Position numbers and translations under genes: made by a program. This document shows, piece by piece, positions 2,035-30,732 of a DNA stretch of 30,788 nt. The stretch comes from a virus, in IMG/VR virus record IMGVR_UViG_3300032291_000246, positions 1 through 30,788 of that record; one strand, given 5' to 3'. The notes under the pieces were generated by a model. The model ran no database searches. It was not told where the DNA came from and saw nothing but the letters and a program-made list of their open reading frames with translations. Numbering within the stretch: the first letter of the stretch is position 1; each line of letters begins with the position of its first letter.

Positions 2035-2543
2035 ACCACAATAAAAGATACATCAATATCTATTTAACAAAAACAGAATATGAGATTTGCCAGTTTATTG
2101 GCCAAATGCGCCACAAAATAACAGCACAAAATGTTTCTGAAGGCAGACAAGACACCAGCAAAGACCCTGTTCAAATGTGTGTTGATGGGGTTATTACTGA
2201 ATATGCTGTGGCCAAAACACTTAATCTAAACTTTGATTTCAATTGTAATTTTAGAAAGTTTGGCGCCGATTTAACCTTGAGAGATGGCAGGCCACTGGAG
2301 GTTAAAAGCACAACAACCGTAGGCGGTAATCTCAATGCTGTGCGAGGTTCTGTCGCCAAGCCAGCCGCAATTTTTGTCTTAACAGAAATTCACGCATCTC
2401 ATATTCGGCTTGTCGGATGGATTGGGCGAGCAAGGCTTCTTCATCCTGATAACCTAAGAAATGTTGGTCGGGGTGAATTTTACTCTGTTGCTCAATCTGA
2501 ACTTTATCCATTTGATGAAAAATATTACAAAGAAACACTATGA
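2031..2543 (+). CDS. PD-(D/E)XK-like nuclease-fold protein
   Basis: This 170-residue protein has an N-terminal helical part and then a nuclease-like core. E57 (in GVITEYAVAKTL), D80 (in FGADLTL) and E90-V-K92 (in PLEVKS) form the E...D-x9-ExK arrangement of the PD-(D/E)XK superfamily. This superfamily includes Holliday-junction resolvases, exonucleases and restriction enzymes. The following strand-rich region (AAIFVLTEI, IRLVGWIGRARLL) suits the rest of that fold. A role in phage recombination or genome processing is inferred from the fold and from the Ref-like HNH gene directly downstream. The gene starts at an ATGA overlap and its 3' end overlaps the next gene by 29 bases. Confidence 0.75.
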   Translation: MNHNKRYINIYLTKTEYEICQFIGQMRHKITAQNVSEGRQDTSKDPVQMCVDGVITEYAVAKTLNLNFDFNCNFRKFGADLTLRDGRPLEVKSTTTVGGNLNAVRGSVAKPAAIFVLTEIHASHIRLVGWIGRARLLHPDNLRNVGRGEFYSVAQSELYPFDEKYYKETL

Positions 2544-2793
2544 ACAAGTTGCATCACTTGGGTGCATTTTGTGCCGATATCTTGCCTTTGGACAAACGCC
2601 TTGTGAAATCCACCACATCCGCAGATTTGGCGGTAAACGAGACAACGCCCCTGTTATTGGTTTATGCCCAGAGCATCACCGAGGTAACAAAGGCGTTCAT
2701 GGGCTTGGCCACAAAGGATTTGAAAAACACTACGGCATAAGCGAACACGAATTGCTGGATTTAACCACCGCGGCACTTACGCGAATAGCCTAG
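2515..2793 (+). CDS. Ref-family HNH recombination nuclease
   Basis: This 92-residue protein has a Cys/His-rich HNH core: C17-x2-C20, then C30EIHHIRR with H33/H34, N44, C51PEHHRGNKG with H54/H55, and H62. The pattern CxxC...HHIR...N...LCPEHHRGN.GVHG matches the RecA-dependent nuclease Ref of phage P1 and its short phage homologues. Ref cuts DNA at RecA-formed displacement loops. ATG 2515 is the first in-frame ATG that leaves this domain intact without a long extension. It lies inside the preceding gene and has no good Shine-Dalgarno, so coupling is likely. The 3' end runs 17 bases into the oppositely oriented endolysin gene. Confidence 0.85.
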   Translation: MKNITKKHYEQVASLGCILCRYLAFGQTPCEIHHIRRFGGKRDNAPVIGLCPEHHRGNKGVHGLGHKGFEKHYGISEHELLDLTTAALTRIA

Positions 2794-4706: not shown

Positions 4707-4886
4707 TTATTTCAAATGCATCAAAGAAGAATAAACTACACCAGCCATAGCAACTAGCATCGTGCCACAGGCTTTAATTAGGATGCTTTCTAACCGTTTT
4801 AAACGGGCATTAATTTGCTCATAACGAAGGGCGCATACTTCTTCATGCGTACTAAGTCTGGCATCAGTTGTTGATATTTCAGGCAT
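4707..4886 (-). CDS. Small membrane protein, 59 residues
   Basis: This short frame encodes 59 residues: MPEISTTDARLSTHEEVCAL, then RYEQINARLKRLE, then a hydrophobic end ILIKACGTMLVAMAGVVYSSLM. A short amphipathic helix with a HEEVCALRYEQINARLKRLE-type signature followed by one membrane helix is a familiar layout. Small proteins like this sit beside lysis or terminase genes of aquatic podo- and siphoviruses and resemble XhlA-like membrane proteins. Its ATG lies in the last eight bases of the glycosyltransferase gene, so the two are probably coupled. A holin-accessory or membrane-docking role is inference. The gene is easily missed because of its length. Confidence 0.7.
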   Translation of the reverse strand: MPEISTTDARLSTHEEVCALRYEQINARLKRLESILIKACGTMLVAMAGVVYSSLMHLK

Positions 4887-5943
4887 TTTTCATTGCTTCA
4901 CGGTTAGATAAAAGAAGGGGATTTTCTGGTGAGAATTTTAAGGCTTCTTCGTTAAGTTGTCTTGCTTCTTCAATTTTTCCAAGATGCCAAGCCGCAATGG
5001 ATGCGTACATATAGGGTTTTTCCTCCCATGCACTTGGGTCCATTGTGTAAACCAAGGCTTTATCTTTAATTGACAAAGCCTTTTTAGCCGTGTAATAACT
5101 CAAATCCCAATCCATTTGCATATAGGCAAACACCGACAAATCCACCCACGGCTCACGGCTGGTTGGACATTCAATTGTTGCCATTTGATACCACTTAAAA
5201 GCATCGTGATTGTTTTTCAGGTTCTCATAGGATTTACCTAAAAGTCGCATTGCATAACTTCTTTCGGTATTCCATACCGCTTCTGGCATTGCAAGGTACT
5301 TATGAAGCGCCACAATCGCTTCTTCCCAACGTGAATAGAAGGTTAACTCCCTAGCAAAATAAAACGCATTGCGAGGGCAGAAAGGGTCTTCCTTGACCGC
5401 CAGTTCAAGTAGCGGCATATATTGACCGCGGGATTTGGTGTTGTCGGGCAGATGCCTAACTAACAGCATATCGGTGTGTGCATATATTTCCTGTATGCGA
5501 CCATCTGGTCGGGGATACTCATGGACTGCATGATGGAATCTGTAACCATGACGGGAGAATATCTTTTCGTAAAAGAAAGAGATTCCGCAACCCCAATCAA
5601 ATTTGTAGCGAAGTCTGGTTGTTCCATCAATCCACACACGTTCAATTTCTTCACGCCAATTGGGTTCAAGCACTTCATCTAAATCTAGGCTAATAACAAT
5701 ATCAATGTCCCTTGGAAGCAATGCAATAGCGGCATTTCTTGCTAAATCAAACCGCCAAGGGCTGATGCAAATGTCATAGACAAGTGCGCCACAATTCATT
5801 GCTTGTTGGATAGTGTCATCAGATGAGCCTGTATCCGCAATTAAGATTAAATCTGCATCTTTTGCCGAATCACAAAATCGTTTTACAAATTCTGATTCAT
5901 TTTTACTAATCGCAGAAACTGCTATCTTGAGTTTTCTTGTCAT
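4879..5943 (-). CDS. Family 2 glycosyltransferase with C-terminal TPR region
   Basis: This 354-residue protein starts with a GT-A fold: KIAVSAISKNE (residues 6-16), DTGSSDDT (37-44) and the DxD-like LDLDE (86-90), which would bind the metal and nucleotide sugar. It continues with FHHAVHEYP (136-144). From about 190 to the end there are helical repeats with spacing like TPRs (NAFYFARELTFYSRWEEAIV, MRLLGKSYENLKNNHDAFKWY, SIAAWHLGKIEEARQLNEEAL). GT2-TPR proteins transfer sugars to proteins or polysaccharides. AGGA precedes ATG 5943. Its place directly after the fibre genes suggests it glycosylates a virion protein, or alters the host surface. The target is unknown. Confidence 0.9.
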   Translation of the reverse strand: MTRKLKIAVSAISKNESEFVKRFCDSAKDADLILIADTGSSDDTIQQAMNCGALVYDICISPWRFDLARNAAIALLPRDIDIVISLDLDEVLEPNWREEIERVWIDGTTRLRYKFDWGCGISFFYEKIFSRHGYRFHHAVHEYPRPDGRIQEIYAHTDMLLVRHLPDNTKSRGQYMPLLELAVKEDPFCPRNAFYFARELTFYSRWEEAIVALHKYLAMPEAVWNTERSYAMRLLGKSYENLKNNHDAFKWYQMATIECPTSREPWVDLSVFAYMQMDWDLSYYTAKKALSIKDKALVYTMDPSAWEEKPYMYASIAAWHLGKIEEARQLNEEALKFSPENPLLLSNREAMKNA

Positions 5944-5959
5944 GTCTTATCCTATTTTG

Positions 5960-6223
5960 TTAACAGTCTTGCGCGTCCTCAAAGCCAACTTGCTGTTTCA
6001 GGTCAGCATATAGACCATCCATCAGATTACCCTGTGGGGTTGGGCAGTAGAAAGCGTGTTGTGCTACTTCCTGTGCGTTTGCTTGCCTAGCGTCAGCATT
6101 GGCAGACACAGACACTTGGTACTGCACTTGGTCTTTGTTGCCAAAGATGTTGGTGATGCGGGCGTATGCGTCTGTGAATGGAACGCCTACGTTGCTTGTG
6201 GGGATAGAGATTTTTAGAGCCAT
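5960..6223 (-). CDS. Small virion-associated protein, hypothetical
   Basis: This 87-residue protein starts MALKISIPTSNVGVPFTDAYARITNIFGNKDQVQYQVSVSANADAR. It looks like a small beta-rich domain with alternating hydrophobic residues and ends in an acidic stretch. I recall comparable small proteins next to tail-fibre genes in freshwater phages, but no function is established. It starts where the YadA-like fibre gene stops (shared base at 6223), so it is part of the same transcript. A fibre-associated or decoration role is inference from position. Confidence 0.7.
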   Translation of the reverse strand: MALKISIPTSNVGVPFTDAYARITNIFGNKDQVQYQVSVSANADARQANAQEVAQHAFYCPTPQGNLMDGLYADLKQQVGFEDAQDC

Positions 6224-7506
6224 TAGAAAGTCACCTCAGTTGTTTCGATTTTTACTACCCAGCGGATTGTGGTTGCCGCCTGACCTGTAACAGTTACAGC
6301 GATACCACCGTTGGTTGTATCAGCAGTGACCGCCAAAACCCAAGTAACAGCACCTGCGTCTTGAGCAATTACCAATGGAGTAACAGCCGCAACCAAAGCA
6401 GTGGATGCAGCGTTAGCACCTCGCTTGATTGCACCCTCAAACTTCCATGAAGAAGTATCGCCAGCGGCAGTCCTTGCTGCAATGCAAGTGCCTTGGAATG
6501 TATAGGCGCTGTTGTTAGGTAGGATTAATTGGTTGGCTGTTCCAGCGGCTCCTGTGTCGCTTGCAAGCCTTGTTGCAGTTGCGTCTGTGGTTTGACGACC
6601 AAGTGATAAAGTAGCAAGTTGACTTTTGCCAGATTCAAATGTAATAGGTGAGTTACTTGCAGGGTAAACAAAATTTCCAGTAATTGACCTTGTTGTGCCT
6701 TGCGATCCACCTATAACAATAGAACCAATACCATTTGCAGTACTATATTGACCGCCAACTACAACAGCATTAGTAATGCTTGCTGTGCTTGCATTACCTG
6801 CTATTACCGCAGTATAAGCACTGTTTGCTGTGTTGGTTGTGCCACCAACAACAGCAGCACTTAAGCCGCTTGCTGTGTTGCTTGAACCGCCAACAACAAC
6901 AGTATTTGTACTGCTTGCTGTGTTGCTTGAGCCACCAACAACAGCAGAACGTTCGCCGCTTGCTGTGTTGTCTGAGCCGCCTAATATGGCCGAATAGTTG
7001 GCACTTGAATTATTTCCAACGCCACCAATGCTAGACGCATAATTAGATGAAGCAAAATTATTGTGGCCAAAATTTATGGCCGAAAAGTTGCCGCTAGATG
7101 CAGACCCCTGATTAAGAGAAACCCAACCTGTAGAATAAGGAGAACCCGCCGCCGTTCCAATAGATATACAGTTCTTTGAATAACATAAATCAATTGTTTG
7201 ACCTGGCCCAATTACAAATAATTGAAGTAGTGCACCAAAACCACTTAAATCTGGAGTTGTGATAGCAATTTTTTGGTCATTAGTTCCATATTTATTAACA
7301 ACAATTTTAATTATTTTTCCTTCTATTGGTGCTGAAGGCAATTGAACAATAATAGTAATGTTGCTACCACCAGTTCTAAAAAACTGAATAGGCGCACAAT
7401 CATCTGCTAAACATACCGAACGAACAGCGGATAGAGTTGCAAATGGCCTAAAAAAATCCCACACCTGAATTGCAGGTGTATTCTCAGATGCGAACCCCGT
7501 AAACAT
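6223..7506 (-). CDS. Tail fibre / adhesin with YadA-like head repeats
   Basis: This 427-residue protein has an N-terminal beta-rich domain (about 1-120). A run of repeats follows, of the type SAVVGGSSNTASG with a 15-residue period (about 155-265), then a C-terminal domain (about 290-427). The repeats match the left-handed beta-roll repeats of YadA-type trimeric autotransporter heads, in which each SxVxGG...NxA unit forms one turn. In phages such proteins act as trimeric receptor-binding fibres. The C-terminal part (about 295-427: LSLGRQTTDATATRLASDTG ... WKFEGAIKRG ... TIRWVVKIETTEV) looks like a separate beta domain seen at fibre ends. The stop of the preceding gene overlaps the start (TAATG). 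Confidence 0.85.
   Translation of the reverse strand: MFTGFASENTPAIQVWDFFRPFATLSAVRSVCLADDCAPIQFFRTGGSNITIIVQLPSAPIEGKIIKIVVNKYGTNDQKIAITTPDLSGFGALLQLFVIGPGQTIDLCYSKNCISIGTAAGSPYSTGWVSLNQGSASSGNFSAINFGHNNFASSNYASSIGGVGNNSSANYSAILGGSDNTASGERSAVVGGSSNTASSTNTVVVGGSSNTASGLSAAVVGGTTNTANSAYTAVIAGNASTASITNAVVVGGQYSTANGIGSIVIGGSQGTTRSITGNFVYPASNSPITFESGKSQLATLSLGRQTTDATATRLASDTGAAGTANQLILPNNSAYTFQGTCIAARTAAGDTSSWKFEGAIKRGANAASTALVAAVTPLVIAQDAGAVTWVLAVTADTTNGGIAVTVTGQAATTIRWVVKIETTEVTF
6781..6970 (-). repeat. Perfectly phased 45-bp tandem repeats in YadA-like fibre
   Basis: On the plus strand the core tgctgtgttg (first copy tgctgtgctt) starts at 6781, 6826, 6871, 6916 and 6961, exactly 45 bases apart each time. 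Each unit encodes 15 residues of the NTASG...SAVVGG type. The surrounding triplets vary, with third-base and small-residue changes. Confidence 0.9.
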
Positions 7507-7949: not shown

Positions 7950-10061
7950 TTACATTGCTCCAATCATCCAAGTATCAAGTTTTGCTTTTGGAGGTGATGA
8001 GCCACCACCACCACCAGCGATATTTACTGTTACATCACTACCTACGTTTGTAGCAACTACACCTGCACCAGTAAAGTTAAGGCTAGTTGCAGAAGAAGTT
8101 AGTGTCGTGCCTTCGTCTTTAATTGCTAGTGAAGAACCCGCACCCGCAGGGCCAGTTGGTCCTGTAGGGCCAGCAACTGTGGAGTCAGCACCAGTTGGTC
8201 CAGTTGGGCCTGTCGTACCAGTAGAGCCTGTAGGTCCAGTAGGACCTGCAATCCCCTGAATTCCCTGTGCGCCTGTTGGACCGGTTGGGCCAATTACGCC
8301 TTGTATACCTTGCGCCCCTGTTGGTCCTGTTGGCCCAATATCACCTTGAATACCCTGAATGCCTTGTGCCCCTGTAGGGCCTGTAGGTCCTTGTGCGCCT
8401 GTTGTACCTGTTGAACCCGTTGGACCAGTAGGACCAGCAACACCTTGTATGCCCTGAATACCTTGAGGGCCTGTAGGGCCAGTTGGACCAACCACCCCTT
8501 GAATACCCTGTGGACCTGTTGGGCCTGTAGCGCCTTGTATGCCCTGTGGGCCAGTAGGACCGACATCACCCGTGGGACCTGTAGGGCCTTGAATTCCTTG
8601 TGGTCCTGTTGCGCCTGTCGGTCCTGTAGGTCCATTTGCGCCTGTAGGTCCAACCTGTGTGTACATCACTTGCGTTGCAGTGAAAATAATTGATGGCGTT
8701 CTAGGATAATTTCCACTTGCCGCCAATGTTTCTATTGAAACGCTAGTATTTGTTGTTTGCCAAAATACTTGAATGTAGTCATTAGCGGCTAAATCCAAAA
8801 CAAAATTGACAGTAACAATTTCTGATGAATATGCACTACCTTGTTTGTCAGGGATATCATAATGTGAATTTGTATCAGTTAAATTTGTGCCGTTTTTCTT
8901 TAGCCAAATTTGTGTTGAACCAAGGCTATTGCTTGAATTGGTAAACTGAATTGAAAATGTAAGGCTATAAACACCCACATAAGCAAAAGTGACACGGCTA
9001 CCTGATGTAACAGAAACACCATTGTTTGATGTATCTGCACTATTTAAACTAATTGCATAAGCAGTATTGGTTGCCGCGGCAGTTTGTGTTGTTGTATCCC
9101 AAAAAGAACCCCAATAACCTAATGCGCCTCCTGCGCCTGTGCTACCAGTAGGACCTGTTGGGCCTATCGAACCTGTATTGCCCGTAGAGCCTGTAGGCCC
9201 TGTAGGTCCAGTAACACCCTGAATGCCTTGTGAACCCGTTGGACCTGTTGGCCCTGCATTTCCTTGGATACCCTGTGCGCCTGTAGGTCCAGTTGGGCCT
9301 GCAACAGTTGATGCCGCACCAGTTGGCCCAGTATTACCTTGAATGCCTTGTGCGCCTGTTGGCCCTGTAGGGCCTTGAATTCCCTGTGTTCCAGTTGGAC
9401 CAATAACACCTGTTGGACCTGTAGGCCCTGCTACTGTAGAGCCTGCACCTGTTGGGCCTGTTGGTCCTGTGCTACCTGTATAGCCTGTAGGTCCTATTGC
9501 GCCTGTTGGCCCTGCCACAGTAGATGCCGCGCCTGTTGGTCCAGTAGGTCCGTTAGGGCCAGTTACGCCTTGTGGTCCTGTAGGGCCTGTATTTCCAACA
9601 AATCCCATTGGCCCCTGATTTCCTGTAGGTCCTGTAGGTCCTGCAACTGTGGATGGCGCACCCGTTGCCCCTGTCGGGCCAGTAATTGAATTGCCTTGTG
9701 CGCCAGTCGGACCTGTAGGGCCTTGAACTGTGGATGCCGCCCCTGTTGGCCCAGTTGAGCCTGTTGGACCAGTTGGGCCTTGAACTGTAGAAGCCGCCCC
9801 TGTTGGACCTGTAGCACCAATAGGTCCTGTAGCGCCTGTAGGCCCTTGAACACTAGATGCTGCTCCTGTAGGTCCAGTTGGGCCAAGCGGTCCTGTAGGG
9901 CCACCCACACCTTTGTCAACCAATACATCAATGCGGGGCTGTGGAACAACCTCAAGGTTTACGCCTCGGTTGCTATCAATTAATAGTTGTACGTTGTTTT
10001 CATCCGTTACAACAACCTGAACCCCTCTGTTGGCAGGGGATACGATTATTCCCTTTGTCAT
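7950..10061 (-). CDS. Collagen-like tail fibre protein with internal globular domain
   Basis: This 703-residue protein has a non-repetitive head (1-55, [20 protein letters not shown]) that probably attaches to the tail. A long Gly-X-Y region dominated by GPTGPTG triplets follows (about 55-310). A globular beta domain of about 150 residues comes next (about 314-467, starting [14 protein letters not shown]). A second Gly-X-Y region follows (about 470-635), then a C-terminal domain ([20 protein letters not shown], ending in a glycine run and IGAM) of a type I recall at phage fibre ends. The Gly-X-Y runs should form a collagen triple helix; Thr is frequent at Y, as in other bacterial and phage collagen-like proteins. 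Start and stop overlap the neighbours closely (ATGA with the gene before). Confidence 0.9.
8140..8655 (-). repeat. Distal Gly-X-Y collagen-like repeat block
   Basis: Imperfect 9- and 18-base repeats encode GPTGPTG and GIQGIQG units after the globular domain. Codons vary, so the DNA repeat is degenerate while the protein repeat is strict. Confidence 0.85.
9125..9900 (-). repeat. Proximal Gly-X-Y collagen-like repeat block
   Basis: Imperfect 9-base-derived repeats encode [22 protein letters not shown] and related units before the globular domain. [16 protein letters not shown] blocks recur several times, which points to expansion by unequal exchange. Confidence 0.85.
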
Positions 10062-16133: not shown

Positions 16134-16580
16134 TTAGTCCCTGAAAAAAGTTGCTTCTAGGGGTTTGTAACCCCGCTTTGTGTAATCTATTAAGGGTGAA
16201 TTTGCCATTACCGTAGTACAGACAAAATCAACACGTTTGTTATTCAGCATATCTTGAGCAAGTTCATCAAACTTAACCCACAATCGACCGCCCAACGATT
16301 TGCCTCGATGCTCTGGCATTACCCACCAAGCCAATTCACGCAATTCCAAAACCTTTGGACACCAAACATTTGGAGTAACTATGGCTGCAATCATTCCCCT
16401 GTGGTCATCATCAATCAGGATAAATCCCCGACCACTTAGCATTTGGAATATCAACTGTCCAACGTGGTCTGAGTTATGTGTCTCAGGCTTTGTTAAAACG
16501 GGTATAGGCGCTTCATTTGCATACTCTCGCATCATCCATACCAAAACTGGAATATCGTGTCTTGTTGCTTGTCTTATCAT
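16134..16580 (-). CDS. GNAT family N-acetyltransferase
   Basis: This 148-residue protein starts MIRQATRHDIPVLVWMMREYANE. It has the GNAT core LRELAWWVMPEHRGKSLGGRLWVKFDELA, where the P-E-H-R-G...G-G-R-L segment is the acetyl-CoA pyrophosphate-binding motif A. It ends TKRGYKPLEATFFRD, a typical GNAT C-terminal strand. It transfers an acetyl group from acetyl-CoA to an amine. It lies between a DUF2163-like tail protein and the gpJ-like protein, in the place where NlpC/P60 tail peptidases usually occur. Its substrate could be a virion or host protein, and phage-encoded GNATs in tail clusters are known from aquatic phages. The substrate is unknown. Confidence 0.88.
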   Translation of the reverse strand: MIRQATRHDIPVLVWMMREYANEAPIPVLTKPETHNSDHVGQLIFQMLSGRGFILIDDDHRGMIAAIVTPNVWCPKVLELRELAWWVMPEHRGKSLGGRLWVKFDELAQDMLNNKRVDFVCTTVMANSPLIDYTKRGYKPLEATFFRD

Positions 16581-23159: not shown

Positions 23160-23822
23160 TCACATGATGAGTGGTTTGTAAGGTCTTAGCAATGTTGCTA
23201 CACCAAATGGAACTTCATGCAATTTGCCATCAGTTGTGTTTGAACGGTTGTTATACAAGTGGGTCAGCAACATCAATGCTGCCTGTTTAATTACAGGGTA
23301 AGTAGAAATAAACGCAGAATTTTGCGTATAAGTCACCACGATTGGGTTGGCCACAGTCTGATTCAACGTGTTAGGGATTGTGTTCAAAATAACACGATTA
23401 CCCGTTGGGTCGTATGAATATTGTGTTGATGCAATCGTAACTGGTACTGTGTTTGATGTGGAATAAAACTCCACCTTGTTAATGATTACGCCAACCGTGT
23501 TAAAGGCAGTTACGGCCACTTCAGGTAAGTCCAAAAACACCGCTGTGTTGTACAAGCCAAAGTTAGGGTAATAGACCTTGTAGGTGGTTGGATAAATAGC
23601 CGCACCAATAAAGTCTTCAATGGCCATCCTTGTGGCCAGTTCCAAAGACTGCAAGTATGTGTCTTGGCTTTCATCATCAAACAAATTTAATTGTTGCGTG
23701 ATTTCAGAAAGGGTTAGCCAAGGCGTTGCTACGTCACGGTCAACTTGCTCAAATTTGGCGTAGTTAAACGGATTCCGCTGGTCGGAATAAAAGGGCGCGA
23801 GGGTTTGATTCTCGACAGCCAT
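23160..23822 (-). CDS. Head-tail connector (gp6-like)
   Basis: This 220-residue protein includes TPWLTLSEITQQLNLFDDESQDTYLQSLELATRMAIEDFIG in the N-terminal part and PVIKQAALMLLTHLYNNRSNTTDGKLHEVPFGVATLLRPYKPLIM at the end. W.L.L.E....L......YL..L...A...IE..I and KQA.LMLL.H.Y.NR....G...E.P.GV..LL.PYK are characteristic of HK97 gp6-like connector proteins (phage_GP6 family). It attaches under the portal. Only three bases separate it from the second capsid gene. Confidence 0.88.
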   Translation of the reverse strand: MAVENQTLAPFYSDQRNPFNYAKFEQVDRDVATPWLTLSEITQQLNLFDDESQDTYLQSLELATRMAIEDFIGAAIYPTTYKVYYPNFGLYNTAVFLDLPEVAVTAFNTVGVIINKVEFYSTSNTVPVTIASTQYSYDPTGNRVILNTIPNTLNQTVANPIVVTYTQNSAFISTYPVIKQAALMLLTHLYNNRSNTTDGKLHEVPFGVATLLRPYKPLIM

Positions 23823-23825
23823 GTT

Positions 23826-24854
23826 TTATACACCAACCAAACGGATGCCAGCAAACGGGTCCCGAACGGTACTTACAAGGCGTTTCTCTGCGAACAGAGT
23901 CACAAAGCCTGGGGCCGTTTGTTCCATTGCTTGCACGCTCATTTCTTCAACGTCAGCAATCGTTACAAATCTTGGCCAGTTAGCCAAGTAAATATTAAAT
24001 TTGCCCGCACCTGTTGTTTGCATATTTGGATTTGCAATAACAGGGAAGCCAAACACATTCATAACAGCACCGCCATCATCATCGCCAACTTCTGCGAATT
24101 GTTTGATAGCAGTAGCACCGCCAAGGTTACGCAATTCGTGAATTGTCTGTGGGTGCATCATCCACGCAGTGCCAGGCAAGTTCCAATACTGTGCAGGGAA
24201 CAAACGAGCCATGTCTGTAATGTCAGAATATGTGACTGCTGCTGCGGCTTGTGTAAATGTAGCAATCGAATGAATACCGTTTGTGATTGCAGTACCGCTA
24301 GAGCCATAAGCAGATGAAGCGGCACTTGCGTACATATTTAATCCGCGCAAACCACTTGTGCCACCGTTGGCAGTAGTAGTTGAACCCGCTTGGTCATTAT
24401 TCAGCACCATTGATGCGCCTTCGATTTGTGCAAATTCAAGCATCAAATCATCAATGATTGTCTGGTCAAGATAGTTAATGTCAGACATAACCGCAGTACG
24501 CACAGGCAACTGGGCTGTAATCACACGGGTAGGCAATTGCCAGATTGATGTGGCGGTGTTTGGAGTACCGCTGTCTGGCGTAAATGTATAGCCAAAAGGA
24601 TTTGTCTGGTTGGCCGCATTACCTGTCTTTGCCACAAATTGCACAGCAGAACCAGCCGCAGACACAACGCGAGACATAGCGCGAATAGGATTTGCAAAAC
24701 GTAATGTTGCAAAAGCATCATCAAAATAAGTGCGACCACCAATATCAGCACCAGACCCTGTAAGCGTTGATGCTTCACGAAGATCAATCTTTACTTTGCC
24801 GCCCTCTGTAATGGCTTGCTTGATGCCGTCTAGGATTTTTTGGTTTGCACTCAT
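23826..24854 (-). CDS. Second HK97-fold capsid protein (paralogue, no delta domain)
   Basis: This 342-residue protein is clearly related to the upstream capsid protein. Shared stretches are EASTLTGSGA-IGGRT (here residues 27-42; 107-122 in the other), ATSIWQL, LNNDQAGSTTTA, SGLRGLN, FGSSGTA, HSIAT and YEQTAPGF-like EQTAPGFVTLFAEKRL. It lacks the roughly 80 N-terminal residues of the upstream protein and so has no scaffold-like delta domain. The ribosome-site leader (AAGGAATTATC) resembles that of the first copy. A vertex, minor capsid or mixed-lattice role is possible. It may also be a full second major subunit. No truncation or frameshift is visible. Confidence 0.9.
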   Translation of the reverse strand: MSANQKILDGIKQAITEGGKVKIDLREASTLTGSGADIGGRTYFDDAFATLRFANPIRAMSRVVSAAGSAVQFVAKTGNAANQTNPFGYTFTPDSGTPNTATSIWQLPTRVITAQLPVRTAVMSDINYLDQTIIDDLMLEFAQIEGASMVLNNDQAGSTTTANGGTSGLRGLNMYASAASSAYGSSGTAITNGIHSIATFTQAAAAVTYSDITDMARLFPAQYWNLPGTAWMMHPQTIHELRNLGGATAIKQFAEVGDDDGGAVMNVFGFPVIANPNMQTTGAGKFNIYLANWPRFVTIADVEEMSVQAMEQTAPGFVTLFAEKRLVSTVRDPFAGIRLVGV

Positions 24855-24870
24855 TTTGATAATTCCTTAA

Positions 24871-24900
24871 AGATTAAAAGACGGGAGGCCGAAGCCCCCC
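24871..24900 (-). terminator. UUCG hairpin between the two capsid genes (attenuator-like)
   Basis: On the minus strand GGGGGGC-TTCG-GCCTCCC forms a 7-bp GC-rich stem with one G-U pair. It carries the very stable C(UUCG)G tetraloop and is followed by GTCTTTTAATC. The U-run is short (four), so partial termination is likelier than full. Confidence 0.75.
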
Positions 24901-24917
24901 ATCATTTTTTTCGCTAA

Positions 24918-26261
24918 TTAAGCGCCTGTCGCTGTGGAGCGATAGCGAATAATGGCGTTGGGGTCAACAACGCTGGAGCAAAGGCGTTTCTCACCAAAGA
25001 AAGTGATAAAGCCTGGGGCTGTCTGTTCGTATCTACGCAGAACCATGCTCAAACGGTCAACGATTGTGTGGCCGCGTGAGAAGTCACCGAAGTACATTGG
25101 GAACAGGCTTGTAGTGCCAGCAGAAGCGCCAGCAGATGTAGGAGCAGAGCAGTATGAGTTTACATACACATCAAAGCCCAACAACTTGCCAACGATGCCG
25201 TCATAAATCAGCGGAGACATACGTTCAAACACAGGCGTACCATTGTTGTCCACCAAGCCACGGATGCCAGCGAGCATCAAGGGATTGATAACAAAACAGT
25301 TGCTTGCAGACCAGTATTGCTGTGGCAAGTTGTGAATGAATTGAATCAAATCAATGTATTTCACGTTGTTTGCAGCGGCAAAACCATTGGTGGTGGTTTG
25401 GTCATAGGTTGCAATGCTGTGCAAACCGTCAGTAGAGGCAGTACCGCTTGAGCCGAAGGCCGCAGCAGAGATAGTGCCACCAGTGTAGGTTGCGTTAGAG
25501 CCAGGGTAAGAATTCAGACCACGCAAGCCTGAAGTTGCACCGTAGGCAGTAGTGGTAGAACCTGCTTGGTCGTTGTTCAAAATCATTGACAAGCCTTCTT
25601 GTTGCGAGAATTCTTGCAACATATCGTCAACAACATTTGATTCCAAACCATCAATGTCATCCAAAGCCGCAGTACGGATTGGGAATTGCACGTTGATGTC
25701 TTGCATATTCAATTGCCAGATGCTAGTGGCTTCAGTTGTAGCCGCACCGTTGTTTTGAATTGCATAGCCCCAAGCCGCACCTGCGTTGCCTGTCTTAGCG
25801 CGGAACTGATAGGTTGAACCATCAGTAGCCACGTTACGGGAAACACCTCGCATTGGGTTGAGCAAACGCAGTTTGAAGAACACGGGGTCGTAAGCAGTAC
25901 GGCCACCGATGCCAGCACCAGAACCAGTCAAGGTTGAGGCTTCTGTCAAATAGGCTTGGTGCTGTTCTTCAGATTCCCACAATTTCACTTCTGTGTGAAC
26001 GCGGTTGCTGCCTTTTGTGAAAGAAGCAAGTTGCTCTTTCACGCGACGATTCACATCACCACGAACTGTTTTAGCAGGGGTGCGAATGATCTCAGGGATT
26101 TGAATTGCAGAAACTTTGGCTTCCAAAGCGGCAAACTTTTCAGTCAACTCGGCTTTTGCGGATTCCACAGTAGTTGCGACTTCGCTTTTTACAGCGTCAA
26201 TTTTGGCTTCGTTAGACACAGCAATAGCGTCAACTTTTTCGAGTACTTTATCCATAGACAT
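24918..26261 (-). CDS. Major capsid protein, HK97 fold
   Basis: This 447-residue protein has an N-terminal charged coiled coil (about 4-55: VLEKVDAIAVSNEAKIDAVKSE...AALEAKV), typical of the cleavable delta/scaffold domain. The HK97-fold body follows from about 105 (YLTEASTLTGSGAGIGGRT...). The C-terminal part YEQTAPGFITFFGEKRLCSSVVDPNAIIRYRS is a common capsid-end signature. It follows the S78 protease, which should remove the N-terminal domain. A good AAAGGAA ribosome site precedes ATG 26261. The paralogous gene downstream is separated by a hairpin. This longer copy is taken as the main subunit. Confidence 0.92.
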   Translation of the reverse strand: MSMDKVLEKVDAIAVSNEAKIDAVKSEVATTVESAKAELTEKFAALEAKVSAIQIPEIIRTPAKTVRGDVNRRVKEQLASFTKGSNRVHTEVKLWESEEQHQAYLTEASTLTGSGAGIGGRTAYDPVFFKLRLLNPMRGVSRNVATDGSTYQFRAKTGNAGAAWGYAIQNNGAATTEATSIWQLNMQDINVQFPIRTAALDDIDGLESNVVDDMLQEFSQQEGLSMILNNDQAGSTTTAYGATSGLRGLNSYPGSNATYTGGTISAAAFGSSGTASTDGLHSIATYDQTTTNGFAAANNVKYIDLIQFIHNLPQQYWSASNCFVINPLMLAGIRGLVDNNGTPVFERMSPLIYDGIVGKLLGFDVYVNSYCSAPTSAGASAGTTSLFPMYFGDFSRGHTIVDRLSMVLRRYEQTAPGFITFFGEKRLCSSVVDPNAIIRYRSTATGA

Positions 26262-26272
26262 GATAATTTCCT

Positions 26273-27055
26273 TTAGATACGTTTTTCAAGTGCCTTGGCC
26301 AACTCACGCGCTTCAAAAGCGGCAAGCAGAGCATCGGCTTCGTTTACCACCGCATCAGGCTCACCCTGAGTTGGTAGAGATTCAAGTGGCTTAGAAACTG
26401 CCTCACGCTGTTCCAGAGCGTTCTTGAATACCAAAGATGCGGTGGTCGCATCCTTTCGAGTCAGACCCGCCTCACGCAAGGTCTTTTCGACTGAGCGAAT
26501 GTTCAAAGCACCTTCAGGGCTAAACATTTCTAATTTGTTGATTTCTGCATTTGGGTTGTTTGGATACATAACTACGGACACTTCGCGCAAGCCGCCTTTA
26601 GTAATTTGAAAGTAAGCATCTTCTGATTGGTCTGGGTTGCCATCAGCATCAACCATTTGGGCTTCTTCTGCATAAGCGCCAACAGAAACACCGCCAAACA
26701 TCTTTGGGGATTCTTTTAGGATTTGATAAAGGTCATTGCCACCAACTGTGTTTGTGTACAAGCGACCTTTGGCGGTCATGCCTTTGTCGTCAAACTCAAA
26801 TGAATTCCACTCGCCCATTGGCATACCAAGGTCGTTGTGATTTAAAAACATTGGAAGTGGTTTGTCGCCAGCATTGAATTCATCTGCCCAATCCATGAAA
26901 CCTTCGGGCTGATAGTTAAATTTGCGACCGTCTGCGCCTTCACGCGCTCCCCAAGTTGTCACTCTGGCTTCCATCATGCCTGATGGGTTTTGTGCCTCGT
27001 TTGCGCCAGCCGCTAGTTGGACCTGCGCTTCGCAAATTAGCGTGTAATTCTTCAT
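26273..27055 (-). CDS. Prohead protease, HK97 / S78 type
   Basis: This 260-residue serine protease shows MEARVTTWGAREGADGRKFNYQPEGFMDWADEF (27-60). H73 lies in PMFLNHND and S124 in FGGVSVGAYAEEA, the positions of the catalytic His and Ser in peptidase S78. A later acidic/beta region ends GGLREVSVVMYPNNP, also family-typical. The tail (about 185-260) is helical and probably scaffold-like. The enzyme cleaves the delta domain of the capsid proteins in prohead maturation. GGGGTG before ATG 27055 is the ribosome site. A 120-base gap with the portal gene precedes it. Confidence 0.93.
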   Translation of the reverse strand: MKNYTLICEAQVQLAAGANEAQNPSGMMEARVTTWGAREGADGRKFNYQPEGFMDWADEFNAGDKPLPMFLNHNDLGMPMGEWNSFEFDDKGMTAKGRLYTNTVGGNDLYQILKESPKMFGGVSVGAYAEEAQMVDADGNPDQSEDAYFQITKGGLREVSVVMYPNNPNAEINKLEMFSPEGALNIRSVEKTLREAGLTRKDATTASLVFKNALEQREAVSKPLESLPTQGEPDAVVNEADALLAAFEARELAKALEKRI

Positions 27056-27156: not shown

Positions 27157-27176
27157 ATTGCAAGTTTTTTTGCAAT
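27157..27176 (-). repeat. 7-bp inverted repeat at portal 3' end
   Basis: ATTGCAA-6 nt-TTGCAAT is a perfect hairpin at the end of the portal gene, in the 120-base portal-protease gap (27056-27175). It is AT-rich. No T-run follows on the minus strand. The gap holds nothing else certain. Confidence 0.4.
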
Positions 27177-28564
27177 CATGTTGTGCCAATATTCATTTTC
27201 CGCTTTTGGCTACCGCCACCACCGCCCGTGTCCTGTGGTGAAGTACCCTTTATAGGCTCATCAGATGAGCCACCAGATTGTAGTTCATCACCACCATCAA
27301 TACGCGGCATATTCAGATATTCACGCGCTTCGTTGGGAGTCATAATGCCAGATTTGACCGCGGCTGTCACAAAATTCATTTGGTCAAGCGGTGCGCCTTT
27401 TAAAAAATCTTTTGTATCAAAGCGCACACAAAGGTTTGGATAACCTTTAAACAAATGCTGTTTTAATTTTTGCTCAACGCTAATAACGGTTGGATACATA
27501 ACCGTTTTATAAAACTCATCCAACATAGTCTGAGTATTATTATATTTGCCATCGGCAATTCCAAGCATTGCAGGCGGTACACCAAACAAACCGCAAATGC
27601 GCTTCATGGTTTGAATTTTCAGATTGGCCGCGTCAGCATCTTGTAGATTTAGCATCTTGATGCTTTCATATGTCATGCCTTGATCGAGCAACATACCCTG
27701 ACCCGACTTGGATGGGTCTGTGGCCCTGCTGCCAGTCATTTGATTCCAAGTTTCTTTAATCCGAGCCGCGATTTCTTTGTACTTTGCGTCAGGAATAACT
27801 TGATCGGTCTTAAAAATGCCAGAAGGTTTAGCACCGTTCTGCATAATGAAGTTGGCGTAAATATCAATGTCTTGGTCTAGCGCAATTAACTCTGTGGCCA
27901 AGATGCCTTTGTTAAAGCCAGACGAGCCTTGCCATGCCGCTTCTTTGATGTGCATGATTTGATGTGCATCCAAAGGCGTGTCTTTGCTAAAGCCGTATGA
28001 GGGTGAACTTAGAACATAAGACGGATAGTTGCCTGGAGTCAATTTGACCGTAATCAGCGTGGCATCCATGTTGTACATCTCAATTGGAGTCTGCACAGGG
28101 TCTTTTTGGTCTTTTCTCCACCACAGGGTAAAGGATTCACCAGCAAGGTCTTGCCACATCATCCATTGATACCAAAATTCATAGGCGCTTTGGAAGTTAT
28201 TTGGGTTGTGCAACAAATTCAGCACTTGTTGGGCTTTACCCTTGTCTCTGGCGCCAACACTAGGGTCTGCCAAGGCATCTACCAAATTGCCATCTTTATT
28301 CTTGGCCATGATAGCAATACCGCATTGAGACAATGCCCTTGCCTTAACGCCAACGCATCCCATCACGGTGGAATTGCGTGTCAAAGCAGACATATCCAAC
28401 ACGCGGCCTGCGGTGGTGGTGCTAGATGTTGTTACATACAGTAATTGCTGAGAGGGCTGCTGGCGATTCTGCCCCATGATTACTTGGTTGCCCAACTGCA
28501 ATTGGCCAAGAACTGCGTTAGATTCAGTTACTTTTTTTCTGCTGAAAACATCCAAAATGCCCAT
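27176..28564 (-). CDS. Portal protein, HK97 type
   Basis: This 462-residue protein begins MGILDVFSRKKV and contains VMGCVGVKARALSQCGIAIMAKN, YEFWYQWMMWQDLAGESFTLW and the signature CGLFGVPPAMLGIADGKYNN (about 321-340). It ends ...MTPNEAREYLNMPRIDGGDELQSGG followed by a Gly-rich tail. These are classic phage portal (HK97 type, Pfam Phage_portal) segments. Twelve copies form the DNA entry channel and bind the terminase. AGGAG precedes ATG 28564. Its stop is followed by a 120-base gap. Confidence 0.95.
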   Translation of the reverse strand: MGILDVFSRKKVTESNAVLGQLQLGNQVIMGQNRQQPSQQLLYVTTSSTTTAGRVLDMSALTRNSTVMGCVGVKARALSQCGIAIMAKNKDGNLVDALADPSVGARDKGKAQQVLNLLHNPNNFQSAYEFWYQWMMWQDLAGESFTLWWRKDQKDPVQTPIEMYNMDATLITVKLTPGNYPSYVLSSPSYGFSKDTPLDAHQIMHIKEAAWQGSSGFNKGILATELIALDQDIDIYANFIMQNGAKPSGIFKTDQVIPDAKYKEIAARIKETWNQMTGSRATDPSKSGQGMLLDQGMTYESIKMLNLQDADAANLKIQTMKRICGLFGVPPAMLGIADGKYNNTQTMLDEFYKTVMYPTVISVEQKLKQHLFKGYPNLCVRFDTKDFLKGAPLDQMNFVTAAVKSGIMTPNEAREYLNMPRIDGGDELQSGGSSDEPIKGTSPQDTGGGGGSQKRKMNIGTT

Positions 28565-28594: not shown

Positions 28595-30265
28595 TTAAAA
28601 CGAGCGAAATCCAAAACTATCGCTAACATAGGGATTATCTAACGAACAATGAGCCGCAATAATCATAGATATGATGCCGTCAACCTTTGCACCTTTGTCT
28701 GCTTCGTTCTTACGCACTTTAATATTGCCGTTAACATCCACGAAACAAGAGCAGTTTCCTAATTGCCATCCAACAAAAGGATTGCCATCATGCTTAATTT
28801 GTTGATTCAAAATTAACTTTTCAATGTACTTACTTGGGTTATTTAGGACCGCCATGCCCTGGCCAACCTTTTTTACAGGCAGTCCAGCATCGTGCAATCT
28901 GGCCACCAAAGAGGCTGCGTTGTATGCGTCATATCCAACTTCTTTGACGTTGTATTTTTGACACTGTTGGTTAATGATGTAATCGCTAATCTCGCGGTCA
29001 TCCATCACATTGCCTTCTGTCAACTTCAGAATTCCACTAGCAATGGCCACATTAAAAATGTCCAAATAGTGTTTGGGAATATGGGCTAGAGAATCTTCCG
29101 GCAAAAAAAACTGCCATTCGGCTTCATAATCCAATTCACCAAATCTTTTTAAAGTACAAACGGCATTTAAATCTCGCGTTGCTGCCAAGTCAAACCCGAT
29201 AAAAACCGCTTCTGGGTCTTTGCGTGGCTCAACAATAATTGCCGCAGGGTCATCCCAATGCTGTCTGTCAAGCCATGCCGCATTAGATGAAACCCAGATA
29301 TTGAGGGTTTTGCAAAGAAACTCATTAAGTGCCGCTGGCTTATGTTTGGCTTCCTCTGCCCGTTGTGCAATGGCATCCTCATAAACCGATATTCCATGCA
29401 TTGGATTGGCTTTTGCCCAATTCACAGGGTCACGCCAGTCATCACCTAAATCTAGGCCGTAGAGCAAGCCAAACCACCGCGGGTTGTCAGTTGCCTCGCC
29501 ACGAAGCATCGACTGATACATGGACAAGTCCTCATAAAACTTTGTGTCCTTCGTGAACGAGGCGGTCGTAATATACACCCGAAGTGGGTTTTGTCTGGCC
29601 ACCATACCTGAGTGCAAAACCTCAATTGAGTTGCGGTCAACAATCTGCGCGGCCTCATCCACCACCACCGCAGACGGGTTTTTGCCGTCACCAGTCTTCT
29701 TTGTATCACGGCTCAACGCCTTGAACATAGACTGCGAATCGCCTCTTTTACCAATGCTAAATTTAGTAGGGGTAAATAATTCAGCCAGTTCTTTGGGCAT
29801 AGATTCCACAAAACCTTTGGCAGCATCAAACACAATTGTTGCCTGCTCCCTGTTTGTGGCTAAAGTAAACACTTCAGGACCAGCCTCGCCAAACAGTAAC
29901 TCATAAAGGGTTAACACCGCAGTCAGAGTTGACTTGCCAGCCTTCCTTGGAATAAACAAAATAACATCCGTCACCATCCGCTTGTTTAGGGTTTTCTTTG
30001 ACCTAAACCCGTAAATGGCGCAAATAAGCAATATCTGGAACGGCTCAAGCACAACCGATTGCCCTGCCTGTGGGCCTTTTGTGTGTTTTAGCGTAGCCGC
30101 AAACTGTAAAACATGGTCAGGCGCTCGGCTGTCAAACACCCATTCCCATTCTTTGTTTTCCAACTGGTTGATGAATCTCTGGCAAGCCAGGCGCACATCG
30201 TTGCAAACATTTATCTCGCCCTTGGCCACCGCATGAGCATAGGCTATACCGTCTTGATAATTCAT
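28595..30265 (-). CDS. terL: Terminase large subunit (HK97 type)
   Basis: This 556-residue packaging motor has an ATPase domain with Walker A PRKAGKST (106-113) and Walker B SAVVVDEA (198-205). The nuclease domain has acidic residues in FIGFDLAATRDLNAV (about 355-365), VGYDAYNAASLVARL (about 445) and KVDGIISMI (about 528). FQ...ICAIYGFR (76-88) is the adenine-binding start. This is the Terminase_1 layout of HK97-like phages. It hydrolyses ATP to pump DNA into proheads and cuts concatemers. It overlaps the small subunit stop by ATGA. Confidence 0.96.
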   Translation of the reverse strand: MNYQDGIAYAHAVAKGEINVCNDVRLACQRFINQLENKEWEWVFDSRAPDHVLQFAATLKHTKGPQAGQSVVLEPFQILLICAIYGFRSKKTLNKRMVTDVILFIPRKAGKSTLTAVLTLYELLFGEAGPEVFTLATNREQATIVFDAAKGFVESMPKELAELFTPTKFSIGKRGDSQSMFKALSRDTKKTGDGKNPSAVVVDEAAQIVDRNSIEVLHSGMVARQNPLRVYITTASFTKDTKFYEDLSMYQSMLRGEATDNPRWFGLLYGLDLGDDWRDPVNWAKANPMHGISVYEDAIAQRAEEAKHKPAALNEFLCKTLNIWVSSNAAWLDRQHWDDPAAIIVEPRKDPEAVFIGFDLAATRDLNAVCTLKRFGELDYEAEWQFFLPEDSLAHIPKHYLDIFNVAIASGILKLTEGNVMDDREISDYIINQQCQKYNVKEVGYDAYNAASLVARLHDAGLPVKKVGQGMAVLNNPSKYIEKLILNQQIKHDGNPFVGWQLGNCSCFVDVNGNIKVRKNEADKGAKVDGIISMIIAAHCSLDNPYVSDSFGFRSF

Positions 30266-30732
30266 CCGGCAAACGGTCCTTTAAGGAATTGCGCCACAGG
30301 GCTGTCTTCTTCCTGTTTGCCAGCAGACAAACGGCTTCTAGGGGTCAACCCTAATTCGTTCATCAATTGAATAATCAACGTCATGGTCTTATTCCGCACA
30401 GACAAATAAGGATTAGGACCAACTGTTTTGCCATCATTAAACTTAGAAACAATACCACCGCGTTTAATTGCCTCGGTGCATTTCACATAAGTATCAATAT
30501 GGTCGGCCAGCATCGCCAACGTGTGTTTGTCTTGGTCATTCCCAATGCCGTACACGTTATAAAGAAATTCTGCCGTTTCCTCAATAAATTGAGTCTTGTC
30601 CCACGCCTCTGGGTTATCCACCCACTCCGCTTTAGGAATTCTCTTTTTTAAATTGTCAGGCAGCATCTTGGGCATACCCCTTTTTGGAGTAGTCCCGTCA
30701 ACTAAATGAAGTTCTGGTGGCTTTTGGTTCAT
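30262..30732 (-). CDS. terS: Terminase small subunit, P27 family
   Basis: This 156-residue protein has a basic N-terminal part (GTTPKRGMPKMLPDNLKKRIPKAEW). The middle is helical (EETAEFLYNVYGIGNDQDKHTLAMLADHIDTYVKCTEAI), and the signature is NPYLSVRNKTMTLIIQLMNELGLTPRSR, which is diagnostic of the P27-type (Terminase_4) small terminase. It recognises the packaging start and activates the large subunit. It is the first gene of the leftward late block. A weak Shine-Dalgarno (GTTGAG) precedes ATG 30732. Confidence 0.92.
   Translation of the reverse strand: MNQKPPELHLVDGTTPKRGMPKMLPDNLKKRIPKAEWVDNPEAWDKTQFIEETAEFLYNVYGIGNDQDKHTLAMLADHIDTYVKCTEAIKRGGIVSKFNDGKTVGPNPYLSVRNKTMTLIIQLMNELGLTPRSRLSAGKQEEDSPVAQFLKGPFAG

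Follow-up and report, generated by a model that had tools for sequence, protein, structure and literature searches.

The window analysed here, a stretch of 30,788 nucleotides from a virus of freshwater bacteria (IMG/VR virus record IMGVR_UViG_3300032291_000246, positions 1 to 30,788), contains a head operon in which genes encoding the small and large terminase subunits, a portal protein, an S78-family prohead protease, two capsid proteins termed MCP1 and MCP2, and a head-tail connector follow one another in the order typical of HK97/GTA-like operons (Table 1). Both capsid ORFs were found where the original prediction had placed them. As in HK97-type phage operons, terminase, portal and prohead protease accompany the capsid genes, as reflected in Pfam matches and in the related IMG/VR loci, and no separate scaffold gene was seen in the MCP1/MCP2 operon.

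Table 1. Features of the head operon and of the region between and within its two capsid genes.
Feature	Position in window	Strand	Evidence or remark
Terminase small subunit	30262..30732	(-)	PF05119 4.7e-14
Terminase large subunit	28595..30265	(-)	PF20441 + PF03354
Portal protein	27176..28564	(-)	PF04860 2.4e-59
S78-family prohead protease	26273..27055	(-)	PF04586 1.5e-10; upstream of MCP1
MCP1, HK97-type major capsid protein, 447 aa	24918..26261	(-)	PF05065 2.4e-28; phrog_10 major head protein
Hairpin GATGGGGGGC-TTCG-GCCTCCCGTC then TTTTAATCTT, MCP1/MCP2 gap	24880..24903	(-)	consensus scan
MCP2, paralogous capsid protein, 342 aa	23826..24854	(-)	PF05065 1.1e-18; 44% identity to MCP1
Recombined segment, MCP2 body; end points approximate	23850..24760	(-)	sliding and gene-by-gene identity
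Head-tail connector (adaptor), directly after MCP2	23160..23822	(-)	PF05135 3.1e-5; phrog_40 head-tail adaptor Ad1

Elsewhere in the window, the tail region encodes a 703-aa protein with collagen-like GPTGPTG repeats (7950-10061 (-); PF01391 7.9e-46), and a PF00583 GNAT acetyltransferase lies within the tail operon (16134-16580 (-)). Further ORFs encode an NTASGxxSAVVGG-type repeat protein weakly matching an ice-binding beta-roll model (6223-7506 (-)), a protein with weak matches to both glycosyltransferase family 2 and TPR models (4879-5943 (-)), and a PF16786 RecA-dependent nuclease family protein (2461-2793 (+); 1.7e-9).

MCP1 and MCP2 are clear paralogues, as originally claimed. BLASTP aligned the two with 150/341 identities (44%; E=4e-74), every shared stretch quoted in support of the claim was found, and the PF05065 model was matched at 99.8 bits by MCP1 and at 68.1 bits by MCP2, relative to a curated cut-off of 24.2. 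Because the alignment starts at L105 of MCP1 and at L25 of MCP2, MCP1 contains some 80 additional N-terminal residues, again as predicted, and these were modelled by AlphaFold, albeit at low confidence, as helices spanning residues 3-52 and 66-83. The N-terminal arm comes to about 108 residues in MCP1, in which some 105 aa make up a delta-like helical domain, and to about 28 residues in MCP2, where the delta-like domain is absent and a conserved arm leads into the shared EAS(T/A)LTGSG motif. As such, tandem paralogy and loss of the delta-like domain from the second copy both stand, and the assertion that MCP2 starts almost where the mature protein should begin needs qualifying, given the retained arm. 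The similarity of the ribosome leaders, offered as a further sign of duplication, does not serve as such, since the leaders of the two genes differ in most relatives and the likeness is hence not family-wide.

Foldseek searches with AlphaFold models of MCP1 (mean pLDDT 51) and MCP2 (mean pLDDT 55), low-confidence models generated from input alignments of 40-50 rows, returned GTA and HK97 capsids with a probability of 1.00 in each case. A lack of the HK97 capsid fold in MCP2, one of the outcomes named as refuting the original prediction, was thus not seen in these models, and as their mean pLDDT values are only 51-55, domain limits considered below lean on what is known of HK97. A profile search with MCP1 matched the GTA capsid (5.5e-9), and PDB searches with single sequences yielded weak GTA matches and nothing else.

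The closest match to either protein in an annotated phage, and the sole close one, was found in Methylophilaceae phage P19250A (KX815270), where MCP1 (58% identity to the window) and MCP2 (56%; annotated 'hypothetical protein') are encoded in the same order, with the same intergenic hairpin and within the same gene order. P19250A has been grouped with phages that infect methylotrophs of the LD28 (freshwater) and OM43 (marine) groups (PMC8163748). When 80 IMG/VR loci were picked on the basis of MCP1 alone, providing an unbiased test for MCP2, the latter was found directly downstream of MCP1 in 74; in the remaining six, the contig ends 18-277 nt past MCP1. Both genes are also present on three MAG contigs titled Beta-, Gamma- and Alphaproteobacteria. 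The search for phages with the same pair called for originally thus succeeded, both in an isolate and in environmental loci, and the pair is a family trait common to hundreds of relatives rather than a local oddity. Seven more distant relatives (e.g., Bcep176, D14E and ST64B) encode a single capsid protein at the same place. No mention of the second capsid protein of P19250A was found in papers on that phage group, nor was anything on this lineage found among the open-access papers searched for tandem or duplicated phage capsid genes.

In a tree of 57 MCP1, 57 MCP2 and seven single-capsid proteins, built by a quick method and with long outgroup branches, MCP2 was set apart by a fully supported branch and MCP1 by a weaker one (66), with the single-capsid proteins falling outside both groups. 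MCP1-MCP2 identity was essentially the same when both proteins came from one locus (0.418) as when they came from different loci (0.415). Together with the tree, these values point to one old duplication with no later homogenisation, and rule out a recent duplication. The tandem duplication proposed originally was therefore confirmed, although as an ancient, family-wide event rather than a local one. A comparison of selection on each copy, as had been suggested, revealed purifying selection on both, with median pairwise dN/dS values of about 0.10 for MCP1 and 0.085 for MCP2. Neither copy is thus decaying, and with both ORFs intact, the notion of MCP2 as a decaying second copy was rejected.

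The interval separating MCP1 from MCP2 contains a GC hairpin and, after it, a run of T residues. A hairpin of >=10 kcal/mol (dG<-10) with a T-rich tail was found after MCP1 in 114 of the 114 loci in which all six genes are present (median dG -17.6), a criterion passed at 0-8% of the junctions after terminase, portal, protease, MCP2 and connector, and by 3% of shuffled MCP1-junction sequences. The 114 loci are not all independent, but 51 distinct intergenic sequences exist among 57 diverse representatives, and compensatory changes were detected in all 6 core pairs of the hairpin, which presumably acts as an intrinsic terminator. As the MCP1-MCP2 gap usually spans only 47-77 nt, there is little room for a separate MCP2 promoter, such that MCP2 is probably expressed by read-through together with low-copy genes. 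A hairpin after the capsid gene was also seen in several single-capsid relatives, so that the signal probably predates the duplication and may simply be ancestral. What the hairpin argues for is a low copy number of MCP2, and not penton identity; the key point is that MCP2 sits downstream of it. At two loci (L103, 5462-5998; L205, about 5923-6500), an ORF assigned to a homing endonuclease family (phrog_314) lies between hairpin and MCP2; that of L103 drew no Pfam match, the assignment coming from PHROGs.

The differences between the paralogues are unevenly distributed. The ratio of identity between paralogues to that within each was 0.83 in the NNDQAGS/SGLRGL loop, 0.77 in the N-arm and 0.70 in the spine helix, and was lowest in the predicted A domain, A-loop included (0.46-0.55, as compared to 0.62-0.83 elsewhere), a region that is somewhat more variable within each paralogue as well. 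In HK97-like capsids, the capsomer axis is ringed by A-loops. MCP1 contains the canonical A-loop motif L-x-D-x-NG-x-P-x-F, the D-x-NG-x-P-x-F portion of which is related to KDADGRFLW of the GTA capsid; the A-loop of MCP2 is divergent and lacks the motif. MCP2 was more variable at 60 sites constrained in MCP1, with the reverse being true of 17 sites, an asymmetry expected of a subunit that experiences fewer environments. Only four sites are fixed and different between the two proteins.

The possibility that the two roles are reversed, with MCP2 being the main lattice protein, or that the copies are redundant and interchangeable, could appeal to both proteins matching PF05065. It is, nonetheless, very improbable, since MCP1 alone combines a delta-like domain, the canonical A-loop motif and a position before the hairpin, and since the agreement of same-locus and cross-locus identities speaks against homogenisation and recent redundancy. 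Were MCP2 instead to replace MCP1 at variable hexamer and pentamer positions, altering stability or surface, a mixed lattice would result. The likeness of the N-arm and P domain in the two proteins renders co-assembly plausible, and in Family 2B two-component encapsulins, HK97-fold proteins indeed co-assemble, in varying proportions and with tiling that is irregular (PMC12407261). Such mixing is, however, unlikely here, as conservation of gene order, of placement on the low-copy side of the hairpin and of A-domain divergence suggests a fixed role. Moreover, a closed, defined shell is required for phage genome packaging.

MCP2 has also followed a history of its own. Relative to one IMG/VR locus, L150, identity is 92% for terminase, 92% for portal, 84% for protease, 96% for MCP1 and 79% for the connector, yet only 63% for MCP2; relative to another, L005, the corresponding values are 60, 69, 60, 66 and 54%, with MCP2 reaching 86%. 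Sliding identity places the switch within the shared EASTLTGSGA motif, at about 24760, and the return where MCP2 ends, at about 23850, with the flanking genes keeping the L150-like lineage. This pattern shows that the MCP2 body alone was exchanged by recombination in the window, from a distant L005-like relative, and, given the switch points, that the arm and hairpin stayed with the resident L150-like lineage. Across 71 loci, distances correlate with those of MCP1 less well for MCP2 (rho 0.50) than for the connector (0.74) or the portal (0.67). In the same 71 loci, large terminase subunit distances correlate poorly with those of every other head gene (rho 0.08-0.27), which suggests that terminase is exchanged separately from the other head genes. 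Variants of MCP2 were likewise encountered. In eight loci (L183, L184, L188-L191, L218 and L224), MCP2 is extended at its N-terminus by a phrog_2859 domain of some 100 aa, and in L185 (6095-7336), the protein contains an insert of about 70 aa in the E-loop region that matches tail-fibre families phrog_21413 and phrog_38233. These variants point to tolerance to change at MCP2.

Exchange of the MCP2 body as the sole replaced part in the window, the poorer tracking of MCP1 by MCP2, and the tail-fibre-like domain in the E-loop region of L185 MCP2 would all fit a capsid-fold protein serving as an exchangeable surface or decoration element, swapped for adhesion or environment and located at the vertex or some other site. 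This is rather unlikely, in that HK97-fold motifs and a dN/dS of about 0.085 exceed the needs of a free decoration protein, and would in any case not be incompatible with a vertex role. The N-terminal phrog_2859 domain, the missing delta-like domain and the low copy number expected could, in turn, reflect a protein that controls head size or acts only in assembly and is missing from mature virions. An assembly factor would not usually be expected to possess an entire capsid-fold body, maintained by purifying selection and with its lattice motifs conserved, and this explanation is considered quite improbable.

The explanation best accommodating these observations, held with somewhat better than even confidence, is that MCP1 forms the hexamers and that MCP2 is a dedicated minor capsomer produced by read-through, probably the penton, in an arrangement for which T4 gp23 and gp24 are the main precedent but of independent origin. 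According to this scheme, the major capsid gene, which was duplicated in tandem long ago in P19250A-like siphophages, would have given rise to a two-protein HK97 shell. MCP1 has retained the delta-like domain, probably a built-in scaffold cut away by the S78 protease, and would furnish the abundant hexamers. An intrinsic terminator right after MCP1 would curtail transcription, such that MCP2 would be made in smaller amounts via read-through, alongside the low-copy connector and tail proteins. MCP2 retains the parts predicted to mediate lattice contacts, namely, the N-arm, spine and P domain, with the putative A domain, which would surround the capsomer axis, being altered. As such, MCP2 would most likely occupy the pentameric vertices, like gp24 beside gp23. 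A vertex role, one of several options raised in the original prediction and the best of these, gains support from the conserved intergenic hairpin, A-domain divergence and the gene-hairpin-gene layout of T4. Termination at the hairpin is inferred, as are incorporation of MCP2 into virions, the number of copies there, assembly into pentamers and processing of the arm. Weighing against this reading are the small number of fixed differences between the paralogues, the raised A-domain variability within each of them and the lack of detectable sequence similarity of MCP2 to gp24. A broader proposal, advanced tentatively and given less than even chances, is that a widespread lineage of freshwater siphophages evolved, without any link to T4, a terminator-metered penton from the duplicated capsid gene, and that the mature body alone can be swapped between phages while the arm remains resident, making the vertex an exchangeable module in a head whose other parts are inherited together.

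If true, this would represent a second, apparently independent, case of a vertex gene beside that of T4, found in small HK97/GTA-like phages, and would allow residues distinguishing hexamers from pentamers to be compared across hundreds of natural pairs that are still 44% identical. It would also bear on annotation, with the second capsid protein of P19250A currently being listed as hypothetical, and the conserved hairpin would offer a simple mechanism of stoichiometry, open to test in cultured phage.

Among the closest known systems, Family 2B encapsulins differ in defining a cellular compartment devoid of portal, terminase and protease, in which mixing is irregular and involves no known fixed site; with these three genes adjoining MCP1 and MCP2, assignment as a two-component encapsulin was rejected. 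The best solved-structure matches of MCP1 and MCP2, namely the Rhodobacter capsulatus GTA capsid (Rcc01687) and HK97 gp5, differ in that hexamers and pentamers both derive from one capsid gene. P19250A differs from the window in nothing essential. The 37-kb genome of JBD30 is housed in a T=7 head comprising 415 subunits (PMC11445458); at this geometry, a genome of about 38 kb would correspond to 360 hexamer and 55 penton subunits.

T4 is the textbook example of separate hexamer and vertex genes, with gp24, explained as a duplicate of gp23, forming pentamers at the eleven non-portal vertices. As in the window, T4 encodes tandem capsid-fold paralogues near a prohead protease, the second gene lying just downstream of the first. 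Used as a yardstick, T4 presented a hairpin and U-run after gene 23 and before the vertex gene 24, bearing out the original comparison with gp23/gp24 in terms of gene-hairpin-gene layout, and just as a homing endonuclease ORF can separate the two capsid genes at L103 and L205, so segD lies between genes 23 and 24. The N-terminal part is likewise long in the first protein and short in the second: the T4 protease shortens gp23 by 65 residues and gp24 by 10 (PMC9958956), to be compared with the arms of MCP1 and MCP2, where cleavage is presumed. The A domain is also implicated in the hexamer/pentamer difference in both systems, in that mutations enabling gp23 to stand in for gp24 fall in the A domain of gp23, at the intra-capsomer interface (PMC9958956). 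By contrast, gp23 and gp24 are much less alike (28% over 278 aa) than are MCP1 and MCP2 (44%), and the T4 genome comprises 169 kb, rather than the nearly 38 kb of P19250A with its HK97/GTA-type operon and S78 protease. No significant BLAST match was obtained between MCP1 or MCP2 and gp23 or gp24, and membership of MCP2 in the gp24 family was rejected at the level of sequence. Still, the parallels in bypass mutations and propeptide lengths favour MCP2 as a separate capsomer type, the simplest being the penton, and MCP2 may thus work like gp24.
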